Positions 670-35,965 of a DNA stretch of 42,144 nt are shown piece after piece; the stretch's first letter is position 1; every line of letters begins with the position of its first letter. The stretch comes from Actinomycetota bacterium (GTDB lineage: Bacteria; Actinomycetota; CADDZG01; JAHWKV01; JAOPZY01), in NCBI GenBank assembly GCA_035765775.1, contig DASTWV010000012.1:1-42144 (forward strand), given 5' to 3'. The position numbers were made by a program, and so were the translations under genes. The notes under the pieces were generated by a model that was not told the origin of the DNA, did not search any database, and worked only from the letters and a program-made list of their open reading frames with translations.

Positions 670-2103
670 CTACGGGATGATCGGCTGGTCGTCGTAGGTC
701 CAGTCGGAGCGCTTGTGCGAGTAGTGGTCGTCGAAGGTGAACTCGCCGGTTGCCTCGTTGAAGTCCACCAGCTTCGGGATCTGGAGCTCCCGGGTGAACG
801 GGCAGCCCCCGTACTCGATGTGGGCCTCGACCTCCCCGACGAAGATGCGCAGAATGCTTTGCACCACCACCGACTCGGCCTGAGGCACGTAGCAGCGGTT
901 GCCGTCGGTCACCCGGTTGCACGCCGCCAGCGCCTCCCGCACGAGGCCCTGGGTCCCGGTGCCGGCCTCGAGGGCCCGCAGCCGCTCGGTGATCAGGAGG
1001 GACTGGGTCTTGCAGGGCACACACTGGCCGCAGGACTCGACGTGCAGGAAGTTGGAGAACAGCACCGCCGCCTTCATCATGCAGGCGGTGTCGTCGTAGA
1101 CCATCCAGCTCCCCGAACCCAGGCCGGAGCCGACGGCGGCGATCGAGTCGTAGTCCATCGGGGTGTCGAAGAACGAGGGCACGAGCACCGGGTTGGAGAC
1201 GCCGGGCACCAGGGCCTTGAACTCCCGGCCGGGCAGGGGGCCGCCGCACACGTCGTAGAGCAGGTCGTGAGTGGAGATGCCGAGCGGCAGTTCGTACACG
1301 CCCGGGCGCACGAGGTCGCCCACCATGGTGAAGATCATGGTGCCGGGCGAGCGGTCGGTGCCCAGCGAGCGGAACCACTCCGGGCCGTTGCGCAGGATGC
1401 CGGGGATGTTGGAGAAGGTCTCGACGTTGTTGACCAGCGCCGGGTAGGGGTGCTCGGGGTCGGCCAGGATGCCCTGCATGTACGTGGGCAGGATGCGGGG
1501 CATCGGGTCGCGGTTCTCGATGACCTCCAGCAGGCCCCGCTCCTCACCGAAGAGGTACTCGTCCGGTCCGAGGCGCAGCTCGATGGGCACCGAGCCCAGC
1601 ATGTCGGCTTCCTTCATCTCCTTCAGGGCCCGCTCCATGGCTTTGACCTGCGGGTGGAACCGGCGCTTCAGGGCGACGAAGGCGGCGCTGGCCCCGGTGG
1701 CATAGGCACCGATGGCCACGCCCTCGAAGATCTGGTACGGGTTGCGGGCCATGAGGAGGCGGTCCTTCCAGGTGGCCGGCTCGCCCTCGGCGCCGTTGCA
1801 GCACAGGTACTTGGTGGTGGCGGGGTCCGCCCGCATCGACCCCCACTTGACCCCGGTGGGGAACCCGGCACCGCCCCGGCCCCGGAGCCCGGAGCGGCGC
1901 ACCATGTCGATGATCTCCGCCTGCGGCACCGCCAGCGCGATCTCCAGGGCGTCGCCGCCACCCAGGGAGATGTACTCGTCCAGCGACTCGATCGGCCGCT
2001 CCGGCAGGACCCGGTTGCAGATGACATAGGGTGTGACCTGCTCCGGGTAGGGCTCGCCGAGATGCGGTGCGGCGGTTGCTGTCGCTTGCGGTGCATCGGC
2101 CAC
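670..2103 (-). CDS. NuoF-like NADH-binding FMN/4Fe-4S flavoprotein, orphan
   Basis: A 477-residue protein of the NuoF/HoxF family, which takes hydride from NADH onto FMN and passes electrons to a 4Fe-4S cluster. Visible are the FMN/NADH glycine-rich motif GRGGAGFPTG (residues 75-84), the AEGEPATWKDR segment, the FGEE motif and NNVETFSNIP. The cluster ligands are Cys358, Cys361, Cys364 and Cys404, with the spacing usual for complex I subunit F. The start is a GTG at 2101-2103 with AGGAGG nine bases upstream; an open frame continues further upstream but has no support. No nuoE, nuoG or other complex I gene is visible nearby, so it is not in a nuo operon here. The segment after FGEE diverges from canonical NuoF, and a tail of about 40 residues follows the cluster domain. 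It may serve a soluble NADH-dependent reductase; the partner is unknown. Confidence 0.85.
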   Translation of the reverse strand: MADAPQATATAAPHLGEPYPEQVTPYVICNRVLPERPIESLDEYISLGGGDALEIALAVPQAEIIDMVRRSGLRGRGGAGFPTGVKWGSMRADPATTKYLCCNGAEGEPATWKDRLLMARNPYQIFEGVAIGAYATGASAAFVALKRRFHPQVKAMERALKEMKEADMLGSVPIELRLGPDEYLFGEERGLLEVIENRDPMPRILPTYMQGILADPEHPYPALVNNVETFSNIPGILRNGPEWFRSLGTDRSPGTMIFTMVGDLVRPGVYELPLGISTHDLLYDVCGGPLPGREFKALVPGVSNPVLVPSFFDTPMDYDSIAAVGSGLGSGSWMVYDDTACMMKAAVLFSNFLHVESCGQCVPCKTQSLLITERLRALEAGTGTQGLVREALAACNRVTDGNRCYVPQAESVVVQSILRIFVGEVEAHIEYGGCPFTRELQIPKLVDFNEATGEFTFDDHYSHKRSDWTYDDQPIIP

Positions 2104-2296
2104 GGGGCACGACCTCCTGTTGCGGCTTGGGCTGGCGTTGACGGTAGATTGGTGGCACGCAGGCCAGGTGACGCGGTGATCCCTGCAGGGTAGTCCACTC
2201 GGCGCCGCCGGAGGGTTCGCCGGCGGCCGTCTACGGCCTGCGCGCGGGCGGGCGCGGGCCTGAGTCACCATCGTAGCGCTGGCAGAAAGGAACCCG

Positions 2297-3805
2297 GTGC
2301 TGGACGCTGCGGCGGCGCGGGAGGCCGACGTCATCGTGGTGGGGGCCGGCCCCACCGGCATCGCGGCCCTGTTCGAGGCCCGCCGGCTGGGGCTCTCCGC
2401 CGTGGGCCTGGAGGCCGGGAGCAGCCCGGCGGCGTCGATCCGGGACTACCTGAGTGGCCTGGTGCTCATCTCCCGCCCCACCGACTACGAGGTGGCCGGC
2501 CTTCCGCTGGACTGCCGGGACCCCAACCAGCTCACCCGGGAGGACGTGTTGCACTACCTGGGGCGGGTGGTGAACTACGGTGCCCTGGACATCCGGGAGG
2601 GCGAGCCGGTGCGCTCCCTGACGCCGGCCCCGGGCCCGGGCGAGTGGGTGCTGGTGGAGACTCCGTCGGGCACCTGGCAGGCCCGCCACGTGGTGGTCAC
2701 CACCTGGTACCGCAGCCGGCCGCCCCCCCCGGGGCTGGTGAACCCGGACGCCGGGGTGCGGGTGATCACCGCCCTGCACGACGGGGTCGAGGTGGCGGGC
2801 CGGGAGACGGTGGTGGTGGGGGGCGGCCTCTCCGCCTTCGAGCACGCCACGGCGGTGATGCTGCACGGCCAGCGCGTCACCATCGTGTCCCGCCACCGCC
2901 TGCCGGCGGCGTTCCGCACGCCGCACTTCGAGACCCTGCTCGCCGTGACCGGCTCCGAGGTGGTGGAGCACGCCGCCGAGCTCCGCCTCGGTGAGCGCGG
3001 CCTGGAGTTCCGGTGGGGGATCGATGCCGCGCTGCGCCGCGTGCCGTGCGAGTGCCTCGTCCTGTGCCTGGGCCACGAGGTGGACCCCGCCGTGCAGGAG
3101 ATGCTCACGAAGGCCGGCGTGCTGACCCCCGAAGAGGTCGAGCAGGTGCGGGCCTCGCCGACCCCGGACACCATGATCCGTCACGGCCGCCCCCTGCAGG
3201 AGGCCATCGCCGCCGCCCTGGCAGCCTGGCCGGACTTCCGTACGAAGCTCATCGGCGGGGTGGGCGGCATCCGCCTGGCCGGTGGGGGGCTGCACATCGG
3301 CGGCGCCCACTCGGGCGTGCGGGTGTCGATGCGCACCGCGGTGCTGGCGGTGCGGGACGCCGCCGGCGTGCCCCCCGGCCCCGAGCTGGGCGCCGGGCTG
3401 CCGCTGCCGATGGCCATGGCCCGCTTCGTGCAGATGCCGCCCGAGGAGGCGACGCCCGAGGTGCTCGGCCCGATCCGGCCGCTGCGGATCGCGGCCTGGT
3501 CGCGCACTGCGATGGCGCTGCGCAGCCGGGACAACTTTGAGGCCAGCCCGCAGCCGGTGCCCGGCCGCCCGGTGGCCGCAGGGCAGTCGCCCTACCTGCT
3601 GGCCCCGCACCCCGACGACCCGGTCATCGGCCAGATCCTGGCGCTGGCCGACGGCAGCCACTCGGTGGCCGACCTGCGGGAGCACCTCGGCCGGTCAGTC
3701 GAAGTCCGGCGCCTCCTCGGGGCCTTGCGGTACCTCTGGCAGAACAACGCCCTCACCTGGCTCCCGCCGGTCGCCGGCCCGCCTCGACCCGGCCAGGGCG
3801 GGTGA
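2297..3805 (+). CDS. FAD-dependent pyridine nucleotide oxidoreductase (YpdA-like) with C-terminal added domain
   Basis: A 502-residue flavoprotein. The FAD Rossmann motif GAGPTG is at residues 16-21 and a second NAD(P)-binding motif VVGGGLSAF around residues 173-181. The layout, including the SRPTDYEVAGLPLDC region after the FAD motif, resembles YpdA/Bdr-type reductases (bacillithiol disulfide reductase family). The real substrate cannot be told. After about residue 430 there is an extra segment, including DPVIGQILALADGSHSVADL, that resembles a PqqD-like or winged-helix module and is not part of the core reductase. The start is GTG with AAGGA seven bases upstream. It is divergent from the NuoF-like gene, with a 193-base gap. 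Its 3' end overlaps the convergent hydrolase gene by 111 bases. Confidence 0.75.
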   Translation: MLDAAAAREADVIVVGAGPTGIAALFEARRLGLSAVGLEAGSSPAASIRDYLSGLVLISRPTDYEVAGLPLDCRDPNQLTREDVLHYLGRVVNYGALDIREGEPVRSLTPAPGPGEWVLVETPSGTWQARHVVVTTWYRSRPPPPGLVNPDAGVRVITALHDGVEVAGRETVVVGGGLSAFEHATAVMLHGQRVTIVSRHRLPAAFRTPHFETLLAVTGSEVVEHAAELRLGERGLEFRWGIDAALRRVPCECLVLCLGHEVDPAVQEMLTKAGVLTPEEVEQVRASPTPDTMIRHGRPLQEAIAAALAAWPDFRTKLIGGVGGIRLAGGGLHIGGAHSGVRVSMRTAVLAVRDAAGVPPGPELGAGLPLPMAMARFVQMPPEEATPEVLGPIRPLRIAAWSRTAMALRSRDNFEASPQPVPGRPVAAGQSPYLLAPHPDDPVIGQILALADGSHSVADLREHLGRSVEVRRLLGALRYLWQNNALTWLPPVAGPPRPGQGG

Positions 3806-5213: not shown

Positions 5214-5834
5214 TCAGTCCTTCGTCACATGCCCGTTCGCCGCCGCCCGGCGGGCGATCTCCCGGCCCCGCAGATCCTCGGTCACCGGGCCGGTGAGGGC
5301 CTCGGTGAGAAGGCGGACCCGGTCGCGCTCCGAGCGGCTTGCCAGCAGCTCCTGCTTGAGGGCGGGCGGTAGCTCGACCACGGCGGCGATGGCGAAGGCG
5401 AGGGCCTCGTCGTCCGAGGGCAGCGGCGACGCGGCGGGGTCGGCGCCGATCTGCACCAGGAGGCGGTCGAATGCCTGCCGGCAGCGGGCGGCCTCGTCCG
5501 GGGTCGCCGGGTCGGGGAGGTCCTCGAAGTCCTCCACCCGCCCGGTGATGAACGAGCGCCCGGCGGTGAGCTCGACCAGGTGGAACCGGCGGCCGCCGGC
5601 CACCACGATGTCGAAGGTGCCGTCGGGGTGGCGGGTCAGCACCTCGGTGACGGCGGCCCGGGTGCCCACGGGGCCGATCTGGTCGCCATGGCTGCGGATG
5701 AAGCCGAAGGGTTGCGAGCGCTCGAGGCACTCGCCGATGAGCTCGCGGTAGCGGGGCTCGAAGATATGGAGCGGGAGGCGCTCGCCGGGCACCAGGACGG
5801 TGCCGAGAGGGAACAGACCGAGCGTCTCGGTCAC
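5214..5834 (-). CDS. LON substrate-binding domain protein
   Basis: A 206-residue protein made of a LON N-terminal (substrate-binding) domain without the AAA+ ATPase or protease parts of Lon. The start TETLGLFPLGTVLVPGERL and the following LHIFEPRYRELI are typical of stand-alone LON-domain proteins in actinobacteria. Their function is not settled; a role in protein quality control is only suggested by the domain. I place the start at the GTG at 5832-5834 (giving MTETLGLFPLG), with GGCGGG eight bases upstream; a GTG three codons earlier has no suitable site. The 268 bases between this gene and the next one downstream (4946-5213) show no gene, only a doubled TAGGTTCGGG at 5070-5089. Confidence 0.85.
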   Translation of the reverse strand: MTETLGLFPLGTVLVPGERLPLHIFEPRYRELIGECLERSQPFGFIRSHGDQIGPVGTRAAVTEVLTRHPDGTFDIVVAGGRRFHLVELTAGRSFITGRVEDFEDLPDPATPDEAARCRQAFDRLLVQIGADPAASPLPSDDEALAFAIAAVVELPPALKQELLASRSERDRVRLLTEALTGPVTEDLRGREIARRAAANGHVTKD

Positions 5835-5990
5835 GGGGAACACCCGCCGGGTGGGGCCTGCTGCACCTGTTGCGGCCGGCGCACGGCCCCACCAACGAGC
5901 GAGCGACGAGGCGGACTGCGCACGGGGAAAAGCGCCCCTTCAGGCACGATGGGGAACGTTACGGCCGCACGAAGAGTTGTCCGCGTGCTG

Positions 5991-6101
5991 TTACTGGTCC
6001 TTGCTCTTGAACGTCAGCCCGATGGTCGCGATGACTGCGACGACTACCAGGATGATGAACCAGTAATTGTGCGCGAGGTTGCCATACACCATTGACGCCA
6101 T
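5991..6101 (-). CDS. 36-residue single-pass membrane peptide
   Basis: A short frame starts at the ATG at 6099-6101, with a strong GGGGGGAGGTG ribosome binding site at ideal distance, and ends in TAA. The peptide has a short polar N-terminus (MASMVYGNLAHNYW), one membrane segment (FIILVVVAVIATIGLTF, residues 15-31) and a charged end (KSKDQ). The predicted topology is N-out/C-in, or a small membrane-anchored regulator. It lies alone in a gap of about 420 bases between the LON-domain gene and the MDR oxidoreductase. A TATAGT box sits about 110 bases upstream. I know no family for it. Many bacterial small membrane proteins modulate larger membrane complexes, but no partner can be named from sequence. 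Confidence 0.6.
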   Translation of the reverse strand: MASMVYGNLAHNYWFIILVVVAVIATIGLTFKSKDQ

Positions 6102-6213
6102 CCAGTGCTCACCTCCCCCCTCGTCGAGTACTACGACACGCCCGGCCGTGTTTCCGGTCCAGAGCCCCCATGTGCCGCGTCCGCTTGCCCGTTGGTCTCC
6201 CTAAGACACGCTG

Positions 6214-6219
6214 ACTATA
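6214..6219 (-). promoter_or_regulatory. Candidate -10 box for the small membrane peptide
   Basis: TATAGT on the minus strand matches the -10 consensus at five of six positions, in a locally AT-rich patch of GC-rich DNA. No good -35 is present. It would give a leader of about 105 bases before the peptide start at 6101. Confidence 0.35.
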
Positions 6220-6255
6220 CAAGAGGGCGGGGGGCATCGGCTGCACCGTCCCGGC

Positions 6256-7245
6256 TCAGGCCGGAGGCGGCTCGGCCACCCGCATGACGATCTTCCCGAA
6301 GACGTCACCGGCCAGTAGCCGGGCGAGGCCGGTGTGGGCTTCGGCCAGCGGCAGGACCGAGTCGATGACCGGCCGGACGCCGGTGGCCGCCAGGAAGGAG
6401 AGCAGGGCCGCCAGCTCGCCCGACGAGCCCATTGTGGAGCCGACCACCCGCAGCTGGCGGTAGAAGATCCGCCGGAGGTCGGCGGGCGGGTCCGGGCCAC
6501 TGGTGGCACCGATGGACACCAGCGTGCCACCGGGCAGGAGCGCCTTTAGCGAGTGCTCCCACGTCGCTTCGCCGACCGAATCCAGCACGGCGTGCACCCG
6601 GTCGGGCAGCCGGGCGCCGCTCTCGAAGGAGTGGTGGGCACCGATCTGCACGGCCCGCCCGGCCCGCTCGGGCGTGGGGCTGGTGACCCACACGGTGAGC
6701 CCGGCGGCCCGGCCGAGCACGATGGCGGCGGTGGCCACGCCGCCCCCCGCCCCCTGGATCAGGACCCGGTCGCCGGGGCGCAGCCCCGCCTTCACGAACA
6801 GCGCCCGGTAGGCGGTGAGGTAGCAGGTGGGCAGGCAGGCGGCCTCGTCGAAGCTCAGGCCCTCAGGCTTGGGCAGCAGGTTGCGGGCCGGGACGGCCAC
6901 CCACTGGGCCAGGGTGCCATCGTGGCGCTCGGACAGCAGGGAGAAGTCGGGGGCGAGTGTCTCGTCCGGGGAGCCGCCGGGCGCCGGGGTGGCGATCACC
7001 GCGTGCACCACCACGGGTGCCCCGTCGGGCCCGAGCCCGGCGGCGTCGCACCCCAGCACGACGGGGAGCCGGCCGGGGTCGACGCCCACCCCCCGCAGGG
7101 TCCAGAGGTCGTGGTGGTTGAGGGAGGCGGACAGCACCCGCACCGTGACCCAGCCGGGCGGCGGGTCCGGGTTGGGATGGTCCCCGAGCCGGAGGCCGGA
7201 CAGCGGGTCGCCGGCGCTGGAGGAGGCGGCGAGGGCGGCGAGCAT
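6256..7245 (-). CDS. MDR-family oxidoreductase (zinc-type alcohol dehydrogenase/quinone oxidoreductase-like)
   Basis: A 329-residue member of the medium-chain dehydrogenase/reductase superfamily. The N-terminal catalytic domain has LNHHDLWTLRG and the cofactor domain has GDRVLIQGAGGGVATAAI, an NAD(P)H-binding glycine motif. The catalytic zinc Cys of true alcohol dehydrogenases is not in its usual place (LNHHD stands where CGxCxxD is expected), and the four-cysteine structural zinc site is absent. This favours a zinc-free quinone-oxidoreductase-like enzyme; the substrate is unknown. The ATG at 7243-7245 is preceded by GGGAAGG at good spacing and is preferred to the GTG three codons upstream. 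It is followed on the same strand by the small membrane peptide after about 150 bases. Confidence 0.85.
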   Translation of the reverse strand: MLAALAASSSAGDPLSGLRLGDHPNPDPPPGWVTVRVLSASLNHHDLWTLRGVGVDPGRLPVVLGCDAAGLGPDGAPVVVHAVIATPAPGGSPDETLAPDFSLLSERHDGTLAQWVAVPARNLLPKPEGLSFDEAACLPTCYLTAYRALFVKAGLRPGDRVLIQGAGGGVATAAIVLGRAAGLTVWVTSPTPERAGRAVQIGAHHSFESGARLPDRVHAVLDSVGEATWEHSLKALLPGGTLVSIGATSGPDPPADLRRIFYRQLRVVGSTMGSSGELAALLSFLAATGVRPVIDSVLPLAEAHTGLARLLAGDVFGKIVMRVAEPPPA

Positions 7246-7293
7246 GGCAGGCACCTTCCCACACCTGCCGGCGGGACGGCATCGCCGGGAGGG

Positions 7294-8046
7294 CTACAGC
7301 GCCTTCAGGTCGGCCCTGACCTTCTGGGCGCCGGTCCGGGCGGTGACGAAGTCGCTGCGCGCCTGGCCCATGTCGGTGCGGGCCTGGGTGAGCACCGGCT
7401 GGGCGGCGGCCCAGTTGTTGTCCGCCAACGGGAGCACCATGGCGGGCACCGGGGCGGCGGCGTTGAGCCCGGCGGTGATGGCGGCGTTGAGGGCGCCCTC
7501 GTCCGCCTGGGCCTGGGTGACGTCCTTGCCCTTGGCCTTCGCCCGGTCGATGTCGGCCTGCAGCCGGGAGGACAGGTCCTGGAGCCTCGCGACGGCGTGG
7601 GCAGCGGTGTCGGCGGCGATGGTCAGGTGGATCTTGGGCTCCTGGATGATGTACCAGTGGAACTGCGCCACGATGCTCTTGCAGTCGGCCCGCAGCGTGG
7701 CGAGGTCGCTGTCCCCGGCGATCTTCTCGCCCAGGGCGCTCAGCCCGGTCTGCTCAGCCGCGATCTGGCCCTGCAGCTTGGAGCGGTCCGAGCCGGTCAG
7801 GTACTGGTTGTCCTTCACCACCGCGGTGGCCGTGGTGATGCTGGCGAGGCGGTTGTTGACCGCGGTCTCGCAGCGCTGCTTCAGGGTGTTCAGGGTGGTG
7901 CCGGCGGTGCCCGGGACCACCGTGGAGGTGGTCGGGGTGGAGCTGGTACCGGTGGCACCGCTGGCGAACGCCGGGCCGGCGAAACCGATCAACAGACCGC
8001 CGGCGACGGCCATGACGCCGAAGCGCCTGACGAAGGTGGTGCCCAT
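7294..8046 (-). CDS. Secreted helical protein, unknown function
   Basis: A 250-residue exported protein. It has a signal peptide (positive start, hydrophobic core VMAVAGGLLIGFAGPAFA, then Ala-x-Ala-type cleavage around residue 28), a Ser/Thr/Pro linker, and a long helical, probably coiled-coil region. Only two cysteines are present in the mature part (RCET and DCKS), which could form a disulfide. The start is ATG with AGGAG upstream. It follows the lipoprotein gene at 8088 by 41 bases on the same strand, so the two probably form an operon and may act together at the cell surface. I recognise no enzyme motif. Confidence 0.75.
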   Translation of the reverse strand: MGTTFVRRFGVMAVAGGLLIGFAGPAFASGATGTSSTPTTSTVVPGTAGTTLNTLKQRCETAVNNRLASITTATAVVKDNQYLTGSDRSKLQGQIAAEQTGLSALGEKIAGDSDLATLRADCKSIVAQFHWYIIQEPKIHLTIAADTAAHAVARLQDLSSRLQADIDRAKAKGKDVTQAQADEGALNAAITAGLNAAAPVPAMVLPLADNNWAAAQPVLTQARTDMGQARSDFVTARTGAQKVRADLKAL

Positions 8047-8087: not shown

Positions 8088-8459
8088 TTAGTTGGAGGGG
8101 ACGTCGTTCTCGCCCTGGCCGCTGGCCTGGTCGGCGGTGGAGAGCTCGGTGTTGAGCTGCGCCAGGTCCTGGGCGATCGCCGCGTCGTCCTGGGTCTCGG
8201 CGGTCTGGTCCTGGGTGGTGCTGTCGGGGCTGGACTGCGCTCCCGCCGCCCCGCTGCCTGCGCCCGCGGCCGGGGACGGGGGAGGTACTGCCGGCACCGC
8301 GGTCGGCGCGCCCGCCGCCGGGGTGGCTCCGGAGTCGGCCCTCGCCGGTGCCGGAGGGGTGGTGTTGGCCGCCCGGGTGCCTGCAGTGCACCCGGCTGAC
8401 AGCACGGCGGCGCCCACCAGCACGCCGGCCCTCCAGATCCAGCTTCCGGTCTTGGCCAT
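8088..8459 (-). CDS. Small low-complexity lipoprotein
   Basis: A 123-residue predicted lipoprotein with an Arg/Lys-poor start, a hydrophobic stretch and a lipobox LSAGC (acylated Cys at residue 24). The mature part is Pro/Ala/Gly-rich, then Asp/Gln/Glu-rich, without a recognisable fold, so it is probably a disordered surface tether. The start is ATG with AAAGGAG six bases upstream. It is the first gene of a likely two-gene operon with the secreted helical protein and is divergent from glgX. The gap to glgX (8460-8649) contains a hairpin GGAAGC-TCGGT-GCTTCC at 8477-8493. Confidence 0.7.
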   Translation of the reverse strand: MAKTGSWIWRAGVLVGAAVLSAGCTAGTRAANTTPPAPARADSGATPAAGAPTAVPAVPPPSPAAGAGSGAAGAQSSPDSTTQDQTAETQDDAAIAQDLAQLNTELSTADQASGQGENDVPSN

Positions 8460-18051: not shown

Positions 18052-19179
18052 CTAGTGCTGGCGGGGGCTGGGCCCGCGCCGCATCCACCGGCGGGCGGGG
18101 CGGCCCTCCCAGGCGGTCACCTCCCAGTTGTCGGACGCCTCCTCGGCGGGCATCCACGCCGGCAGTGGCATCCGGAGGTGGGCGGAGAGCGCCCGCAGGT
18201 AGGGCTCGTAGGTGGCCCGGAGCGATCGGAGCTCCTCGCCAGCGCGCTCGCCCGCCGCCGGGGTCAGCCCGCTCTCGGAGATGTGGCGGCGCAGGCGGTC
18301 CAGCCCTTCGGGGGGGAGCCGGTCCACGCCGCCCCGCACCGGTGGGGTGCCGAGGATCGCGGCCAGGTCCACCGCGGCATGGCGGGCCATGGCGAAGGTG
18401 AGTCTGGCCTGGCTGTCGGTGATCTCCGCCATCCCCGCCATGACCAGGGCGCAGGCGTCCAGGATGACGGTGAGGGCGGAGAGCCAGGACTGGTTGTCGT
18501 GCTGGGACCGGAAGTAGGCCAGCACGGGATAGGAGAGGTGGCTCTCCAGGAGCTCGGCGCACCACAGCTCCCACTCCCGCAGGAACTGCAGGCCGGACTC
18601 GGCGTAGACCGGCCCCCGGCGGCCGAGCAGCTCCCCCGCACTGGGCGGTGAGCCCGCCCGTTCGTCCAGCAGGGAGATGCGCACCTCCCGCCGGGAGAAG
18701 GACTGGTACAGCACCGGCAGGTACGAGATGACCAGGGCGAGGAACGCCAGCCCGGCGCCCGCCTCGGCCACGGTCACGAGCCGGCCCAGACGGTTCGCCG
18801 GGGTGATGTCGCCCAGCCCGAGCGTGAAGAACGTGCTGGCGCTCAGGTACACGAGGCTGAGGAAGGTGTGCGCCCCGGCGGCATGGACCCGCCCGACGCC
18901 CTCGATCATGAGGGCGAAGCCCAGGATCAGCCCCCCGCCCCACACCGCCAGCAGGAACAGGAGGGAGAGCGGGCCGTAGTAGCTGAGGTAGGTTTCCCGC
19001 CGGGGCGTGGTCCGGGGGACCCGGGCGCCCAGCGTCCACAGGCTCCAGGTCGTCCGGTAGAACGCCCGGGCGATACGGAAGCGTCGGGAGACCCGCCGGG
19101 GCAGGATCAGGGTCTCGAAGGCATCCCAGAACACCACCAGGACCAGGGCGACACCAAGCGCGCCCAGCAGGATCTTCAC
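18052..19179 (-). CDS. Two-TM ion channel protein with TLGLGD filter
   Basis: A 375-residue membrane protein of the Ion_trans_2 potassium channel type. An N-terminal hydrophobic segment (residues 3-18) and a helix at about 71-92 precede a pore loop with filter-like T119-L-G-L-G-D124; another membrane helix (about 137-158) follows, then a cytoplasmic domain of about 215 residues. The classic filter is TVGYGD, so Val is replaced by Leu and Tyr by Leu. The start is GTG with no clear ribosome binding site. It lies 63 bases downstream of a marR gene on the same strand and is probably co-transcribed. Ion selectivity cannot be told from sequence. Confidence 0.8.
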   Translation of the reverse strand: MKILLGALGVALVLVVFWDAFETLILPRRVSRRFRIARAFYRTTWSLWTLGARVPRTTPRRETYLSYYGPLSLLFLLAVWGGGLILGFALMIEGVGRVHAAGAHTFLSLVYLSASTFFTLGLGDITPANRLGRLVTVAEAGAGLAFLALVISYLPVLYQSFSRREVRISLLDERAGSPPSAGELLGRRGPVYAESGLQFLREWELWCAELLESHLSYPVLAYFRSQHDNQSWLSALTVILDACALVMAGMAEITDSQARLTFAMARHAAVDLAAILGTPPVRGGVDRLPPEGLDRLRRHISESGLTPAAGERAGEELRSLRATYEPYLRALSAHLRMPLPAWMPAEEASDNWEVTAWEGRPARRWMRRGPSPRQH

Positions 19180-33874: not shown

Positions 33875-35965
33875 ATGGATGAGACCCAGACCCAACAGCG
33901 GTCGATGCTCGCCGGAAAGCTCGTTTCCGAGCTCCAGGCGATCGCCGAGCAGGTGGGAGTGAAGGACCCGAAGAAGCGCAAGAAAGCGGACCTCATCGAT
34001 GCCATCCTCGGGACGGTTCACGGGAGCCCGGAGAGTGGCGGCAACGGTACGGTCAATGGGGGAGAGGAGCGCCAGCGCGGGTTTGGCGCACCTCCCGCGG
34101 GCGAGAGCGGCAACGGCGCACCGGCTGCCGGCCCCGTTCGGTCGGCGCCGGCTGCTCTGCCTGCCCCAGCTGGGGAGGGGCGGAACGGGACCGCCGCCGC
34201 GGCCCCCCGTCCCCACACGCCGTGGCGTCCCCCCGTGGTGCCCGGCATCCCGGTCCCACCGCAGCCCGGCCTGGCTCCTGCCCCGGCACCGGTTGCCGAG
34301 GGTGCGCCCGCGCCGTCGGCACCCACCGGTGGGACGGAATCCAGTCGGACGGAATCCAATGGGACGGAATCGGCGGCGCAGTCCGCAACCGCGTCTGCAG
34401 CGCAGGCCCCAGCGCAGGCCCCCAGCGGGGAATCTGCGGATGCCGCCAGCGCATCCCAGGCACCGACCACCGACACCCCGGCCTCCCCGGGAGAGGCTGC
34501 CGCCACCTCGGCGCCGGCCACCGGCGAGTTGGCATCGGCGGAGGCGTCGTCCGGCGCCCCGTCCTATGCCCCCTCCCAGGGCGAGGGGCGGCCCGAGTAC
34601 CGCCGGGACCGTGACGGTGAGGGGGGTCGGGACCGTGGCCGGCGCCGGCGGCGCCGGGACCGCAACGACCGGCCCGAGCGCCCGGGCGACCGGGTGGAGC
34701 GGACGCCGGACCGCAACTTCGACCGCGGGCAGGACCGCAACTTCGACCGCAACTATGACCGGGGCGCGGACCGGAACATCGACCGGGGCGAACGGACGGA
34801 CACCCGGCCCCGGCGCGAGCCGGAAGTCGAGGACACCAGCGACCTCGAGGTGCGCACCGGCATCCTGGACGTCCTGCCCGAGGGCTACGGCTTCCTCCGC
34901 ACCAGCGGCTACCTGCCCGGGCCGGAGGACGTCTACGTGTCGCTCTCCCAGGTGCGGCGCTCGCAGCTCCGCCGGGGCGACCACATCGTCGGGGCGGTGC
35001 GCAGGCCCAAGGAGGGCGAGAAGTACCAGGCCCTCGTGCGCATCGACAAGGTGGACGGCATGGCCCCCGAGGAGGTCATCGGCCGGAAGTGGTTCGAGAA
35101 GCTGACCCCGCTCTACCCCGAGACCCGCCTCCACATGGAGCTGGCCGAGAACCCGGCCCAGATCGCCCAGCGGATCATCGACCTGGTCGCTCCGATCGGC
35201 AAGGGCCAGCGCGGGATGATCGTCTCGCCGCCGAAGGCGGGCAAGACCACGATCATGAAACAGATCGCCAACTCGGTCACCTCCAACAACCCCGAGTGCC
35301 ACCTGATCGTGCTGCTGGTGGACGAGCGGCCCGAAGAGGTGACCGACATGCAGCGCTCGGTCAACGGCGAGATCGTCTACTCGACCTTCGACCGGCCCTC
35401 GGAGGACCACATCCAGGTCACCGAGCTCACCCTGGACCGGGCCAAGCGCCTGGTGGAGCTGGGCAATGACGTGGTGATCCTGCTGGACGGCATCACCCGG
35501 CTCTCCCGGGCCTACAACCTGGCGACGCCGGCGTCCGGGCGCATCCTCTCCGGCGGTGTCGACTCGACGGCCCTCTACCCGCCCAAGCGGTTCTTCGGTG
35601 CCGCCCGCAACATCGAGGAGGGCGGGAGCCTGACCATCATCGCCACCGCCCTGGTGGATACCGGGTCCCGGATGGACGAGGTGATCTTCGAGGAGTTCAA
35701 GGGAACGGGCAACTGGGAGCTGCGCCTCGACCGGCGGGCCGCCGAGAAGCGGATCTTCCCCGCCATCGACATCCAGGGCTCCGGCACCCGCAAGGAGGAG
35801 CTGCTGCTCTCCTCGGATGAGCTCGCCCTGGTGTGGAAGCTGCGCCGGGTCCTGCACGCCCTGGAGGGCGTGGCCGCCCTGGAGCTGCTGGTGGACAAGA
35901 TGCGCCAGACCAAGGGCAACATGCAGTTCCTGCGGGAGATCTCCAAGGTGACGATCGGCGACTGA
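33875..35965 (+). CDS. rho: Transcription termination factor Rho with long disordered insert
   Basis: A 696-residue Rho, much longer than the E. coli protein of 419 residues. The N-terminal helical domain (residues 1-48, [20 protein letters not shown]) is followed by an Ala/Pro/Ser/Gly-rich stretch (about 49-237) and an Arg/Asp-rich one (about 238-318, with repeats like [14 protein letters not shown]). Then come the cold-shock RNA-binding domain (about 320-395, [19 protein letters not shown]) and the RecA-like ATPase with Walker A PPKAGKTT (near 451) and Walker [10 protein letters not shown] (near 533). [11 protein letters not shown] is conserved at the end. The ATG at 33875 has AAAGGAGG nine bases upstream; a longer frame has no such site. 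Such inserts are common in actinobacterial Rho and may bind RNA or drive condensates. Confidence 0.97.

Follow-up and report, generated by a model that had tools for sequence, protein, structure and literature searches.

A likely gene for a small single-pass membrane protein between the MDR and LON-domain genes of an actinobacterial family

Known one-helix proteins and families

CydX, KdpF and AcrZ represent a type of small accessory subunit that consists of a single helix. CydX is given as 37 residues in PMC4325964, and AcrZ is treated in PMC7267776. Here, we describe a 36-codon ORF on a 42,144-nucleotide stretch of DNA from an Actinomycetota bacterium (the window; contig C12 of genome G000), together with its counterpart in G001, the only other genome of the same family in the collection, which belongs to a different genus. 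The predicted peptide is like the CydX, KdpF and AcrZ type in its size and single helix, but unlike this type in that it has no above-threshold match in Pfam, NCBIfam or the PDB sequences, and in that neither of the adjacent genes, judged by its family, codes for a membrane complex. In the assay of PMC6005532, no single residue of CydX was required, which calls for caution in reading function from single conserved residues.

The general kind to which such proteins belong is defined by a single predicted membrane helix in an ORF of fewer than about 50 codons, as found in the 36-codon ORF, and by conservation of the protein in related species, as found in G001, the sole relative compared. When the peptide was compared with Pfam, NCBIfam, PHROGs and the PDB sequences, all matches to its helix were sub-threshold, and Rfam gave no match up to E 1 in the region 5700–6500. 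NF045534 (EYxxD motif small membrane protein), a family of 37 positions that is likewise small with one helix, matched the helix weakly, with E 0.032 for the window peptide and 0.0018 for that of G001. Membership was rejected, as the scores of 13.9 and 17.9 bits stay well below the cut-off of 29 and the EYxxD motif is in neither peptide; the family itself was above cut-off in none of 296 genomes of the phylum. NF040912 (the SGM_5486 family), which is actinobacterial and also has one hydrophobic stretch in 37 positions, matched with E 0.083 and 0.018, at 12.7 and 14.8 bits against a cut-off of 35, and was rejected as well. Unlike the window peptide, its members have starts such as PVLDPNPQNGQKK, carry charges ahead of the helix and lack the SKD end, and the family was above cut-off in 8 of the 296 genomes, all of the genus label g39. 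At E up to 0.01, G000 and G001 had no match to either NF045534 or NF040912. DUF5325 (PF17259) was rejected at 13.9 bits and E 0.048, compared to a gathering cut-off of 25, and did not hit the G001 peptide. Matches to filamentous phage coat protein in the PDB sequences (E 0.43–0.52) were also set aside, since they rest on a shared VVV-ATIG stretch. A literature search joining LON-domain, small-ORF and actinobacteria found nothing specific. The peptide falls in no known family that was tested, and the most probable reading is that the ORF is a genuine gene for a small membrane protein, a kind already known.

The ORF, its signals and its counterpart

The features of the locus, listed in order along the window and followed by the counterpart, are:

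5214–5843, minus strand: LON substrate-binding-domain protein, the downstream neighbour (Pfam PF02190, E 4.1e-26)
5850–5893, no strand assigned: inverted repeat with the arms GGTGGGGCC and GGCCCCACC, in the stretch that separates the ORF from the LON gene
5991–6101, minus strand: 36-codon ORF, stop included, with an ATG start; predicted small single-pass membrane protein
6109–6116, minus strand: Shine-Dalgarno sequence GGAGGTGA, 7 bases before the ATG
6214–6219, minus strand: TATAGT, probable -10 box, the single TATAGT in the window
6256–7254, minus strand: MDR/quinone oxidoreductase-like protein, the upstream neighbour (Pfam PF00107, PF13602 and PF08240)
L003:1483–1590 in G001: counterpart ORF with a GTG start, 35 residues, between the same MDR and LON genes

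A preliminary description, made by eye, had proposed a small membrane peptide at this location, and the analysis bears it out. The ORF translates as MASMVYGNLAHNYWFIILVVVAVIATIGLTFKSKDQ, followed by a stop, and the peptide has a single hydrophobic helix and the C-terminus FKSKDQ. AlphaFold, working from two sequences only, predicted a single helix of residues 2–35 with a mean pLDDT of 81.6. The GC content by codon position (0.47/0.31/0.86) follows the same low-low-high pattern as that of the neighbouring genes, and there is one copy of the ORF per genome in G000 and G001. The ORF had also been said to lie below the length cut-off of most gene finders; this does not hold for every finder, as its 111 bases exceed the minimum gene length of 90 bases used by Prodigal.

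The highest 17-residue Kyte-Doolittle mean of the ORF is 2.93, and it is the sole one to reach at least 2.3 among the 157 ORFs of 20–60 codons in the six frames of the window. The counterpart is likewise the sole such hydrophobic ORF on the 38.5-kb G001 contig (one of 161 ORFs of 20–60 codons). When ORFs of 20–60 codons with a mean of at least 2.0 were counted behind a GGAGG located 4–10 bases before the start, two were found in the real window, compared to none in 60 first-order Markov sequences of window length. The second of the two is a 52-codon TTG ORF at 35113–35271, with a mean of 2.08. GGAGGTG by itself is common, with 22 occurrences in the window against 13.3 expected.

The strong and well-spaced ribosome binding site and the upstream TATAGT box of the preliminary description are both present. 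GGGAGGTGA precedes the start in both genomes, and the longer GGAGGTGA occurs at one place only in the G001 contig, before the counterpart ORF. GGATCACCTCCTTTC, which we take to be the form of the 16S 3' end, was found at two places in G000 and one in G001 that may be 16S ends. TATAGT occurs once per contig in the window and in G001, each time on the coding strand upstream of the ORF; in dinucleotide shuffles, 0.62 occurrences would be expected anywhere in the window. Its distance to the Shine-Dalgarno sequence is unequal in the two genomes (97 bases in the window vs. 35 in G001). A consensus scan of 5400–6700 returned no full sigma-70 promoter, no -35 box and no T-run terminator.

The peptides of G000 and G001 are 56% identical overall, with the frame unbroken. 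Their alignment contains one whole-codon indel per side, and the window peptide, which ends in FKSKDQ where that of G001 ends in FFHSKD, is one residue longer at the C-terminus. The first 13 residues are poorly conserved, whereas 12 of the 14 residues in the core, F15–G28, are identical, with four silent codon changes at V19, V21, V23 and T26. Frameshifts, stops or a lost ribosome site in a relative had been named beforehand as evidence that would count against the gene; in the one relative, the frame is intact and the ribosome site is kept. A proposed comparison of synonymous and non-synonymous change also came out in favour of the gene: over 34 codons, the differences by codon position are 10/8/14, with pS 0.43 and pN 0.28, although such codon statistics are weak because the ORF is known from two genomes only. 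For residues 14–35, pS is 0.38 and pN is 0.16, and retention of this many residues has P 0.029 when the same changes are placed at random. The corresponding values for the neighbouring genes are pS 0.48 and pN 0.23 (MDR) and pS 0.52 and pN 0.31 (LON). A model that preserves hydrophobicity only reached 12 of 14 core residues in 0.0001–0.0013 of simulations at 0.40–0.50 changes per site and in 0.12 of runs at 0.20 changes per site, values that flatter the case because the core was picked after being seen.

Measured from the MDR stop (6256) to the LON start (5843), the gap, described earlier as about 420 bases, is 412 bases long; 147 of these separate the ORF from the LON start, with both genes on one strand. 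The gap is not otherwise empty, as had been thought, since it also contains the inverted repeat, which has an equivalent place and arms in G001 and a pattern absent elsewhere in both genomes. The arms are spaced by 26 bases in the window and by 11 (with 10-base arms) in G001, and the loop and the distance from hairpin to LON differ between the two genomes. A LON match is present in eight further members of the class, and upstream of the seven of these LON genes that were compared, no inverted repeat of this sequence was seen. Compared with shuffles, the predicted RNA fold of the hairpin region is clearly favoured in G001 (z -3.51 and -4.08); in the window it is not (z -1.44, and -0.19 for a longer stretch). 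There is no T-run at the hairpin, which may be a transcript end or terminator, or a leader element of the LON gene.

For the MDR protein, the best NCBIfam match was TIGR02824 (E 2.9e-38), under its cut-off. The preliminary description had asked whether the peptide always sits beside the LON-domain or MDR gene, and it does so in both of the two genomes that have the ORF. G000 and G001 are colinear, however, from a NuoF-like gene (670) to past the 17-kb point of the window, so that shared descent accounts for the genes next to the ORF and their position gives no proof of a functional link to MDR or LON. Some other genes of the window were observed in passing. The NuoF-like protein (670–2361, minus strand; Complex1_51K and NADH_4Fe-4S, with NCBIfam NuoF under cut-off) and a YpdA-like flavoprotein (2297–3805, plus strand; under cut-off) are both kept in G001; as listed, these two ORFs, on opposite strands, overlap at their 5' ends. 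Upstream of MDR, two frames on the minus strand (7294–8046 and 8088–8459) look by eye like a secreted-protein and a lipoprotein gene, and 18052–19179 (minus strand) encodes an ion-channel domain (Ion_trans_2, PF07885, E 4.8e-10).

Distribution among related genomes

The class is represented by 24 genomes in the collection, of which the 22 besides G000 and G001 yielded no counterpart. The flanks of the LON gene, which is present in 10 of the 24, were searched by hydrophobicity and ribosome site, and the flanks of 25 MDR loci from 17 of the 24 were searched as well; in both cases the ORF was found in G000 and G001 only. Candidates near LON genes in L019 and L020 were rejected because they look like tails of longer genes, and a 52-residue frame near MDR in L060 is unrelated. 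The L019 and L020 frames (L019:2874–3044 and L020:591–752) have similar hydrophobic tails (RFAD...TPYAR.GDW) and probably belong to the end of a longer conserved protein.

A search with the single peptide at E up to 1 gave matches in 9 of 61 genomes, with eight weaker hits outside G000 and G001, and a profile search at E up to 0.02 gave hits in 20 of 396 sampled genomes of the phylum, 18 of them besides G000 and G001. All 18 profile hits and all eight weaker single-peptide hits were translated and rejected, as each lies within a longer open frame than that of the peptide. The shortest such frame, L036, has 69 residues, extends 43 residues beyond the match and is presumably TatA-like; the hits in L010, L023 and L025 we take to be the last helices at the ends of CorA-like proteins. 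A profile search of the class at E up to 10 gave matches in 11 of the 24 genomes; besides the two real ones there were 14, with no comparable short ORF with a ribosome site among them. In genome_contigs, the DNA pattern of the core matched the G001 contig (L042) and one other stretch, L041, an alphaproteobacterial 67-residue frame with two hydrophobic stretches that was judged unrelated by eye; in viral_contigs it matched nothing. Peptide searches of phages and plasmids gave no matches. Absence outside the family is not proved by these searches, because short sequences soon diverge out of reach, and the gene is probably restricted to one actinobacterial family as far as it can be searched.

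Interpretation and alternative explanations

We consider it reasonably likely that the ORF is a real gene for a small, lineage-restricted, single-pass membrane protein, which would probably serve as an accessory or regulatory subunit. From the observed ORF, its conservation and its signals, we infer how the product would be transcribed, translated, oriented and bound to a partner. Transcription would probably start from the gene's own TATAGT promoter and may end near the conserved hairpin, and translation would begin from the strong Shine-Dalgarno sequence GGAGGTGA. The peptide would be inserted as one helix of about residues 14–31. Positively charged residues of membrane proteins tend to lie on the inside (the positive-inside rule), and since in both peptides Lys and Arg are missing ahead of the helix while Lys follows it, the N-terminus is predicted to be outside and the Lys-containing C-terminus inside. 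The core residues are retained exactly through silent changes, including the small A/G22, A25, T26 and G28, beyond what mere hydrophobicity would need, which suggests a specific helix–helix contact; the helix thus probably packs against a specific partner, and the peptide would serve a larger membrane protein as its accessory or regulatory subunit.

An alternative that we regard as unlikely is that the ORF is a translated leader, the translation of which controls the LON gene with the hairpin as a switch, while the peptide itself has little function. The location of the ORF 147 bases before LON, on the same strand and with a conserved hairpin between them, is consistent with such an arrangement, and PMC10903887 describes a leader peptide for which a transmembrane helix is predicted. 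However, the retention of core residues through silent changes points to selection on the protein rather than on regulatory codons or RNA. In addition, there is no run of one regulatory amino acid except the valines, and both the hairpin loop and the LON distance differ between the two genomes.

Two further explanations appear very improbable. Type I toxins are generally small, with a single helix and a polar end, and the peptide has this form, so that it might be a small hydrophobic toxin silenced by an antisense RNA. Against this, the strand opposite the ORF carries no TANNNT box within the gap of either genome, plasmids and phages gave no match, and the ORF is present in one copy per genome at a chromosomal position that is stable across two genera. 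As to an overlapping or adjacent antisense RNA gene, Rfam gave no match. The ORF could also be no gene at all: a chance frame in a conserved regulatory stretch, or the remnant last membrane helix of a longer protein. Its presence in two genomes only fits either possibility, and the weak CorA-like hits noted above, which match last helices, fit the second. On the other hand, the start, ribosome site, frame and stop are conserved, together with silent changes in the codons, and among the ORFs of 20–60 codons neither contig has another of similar hydrophobicity.

That the ORF is a real gene for a small membrane protein thus remains our preferred reading. That a very short gene seen by eye can gain support from the frame, promoter box and ribosome site of one relative is illustrated by this locus. 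Nothing is overturned, as small one-helix proteins are a recognised and growing class that is common in bacteria. Somewhat less probably, the peptide may represent a new lineage-specific family, for which a strong promoter of its own and a conserved hairpin at the transcript end would be typical; it would then be dedicated, as subunit or regulator, to a membrane complex that the rest of the class operates without it. For an actinobacterial lineage about which little is known, the finding contributes a probable family of small proteins.
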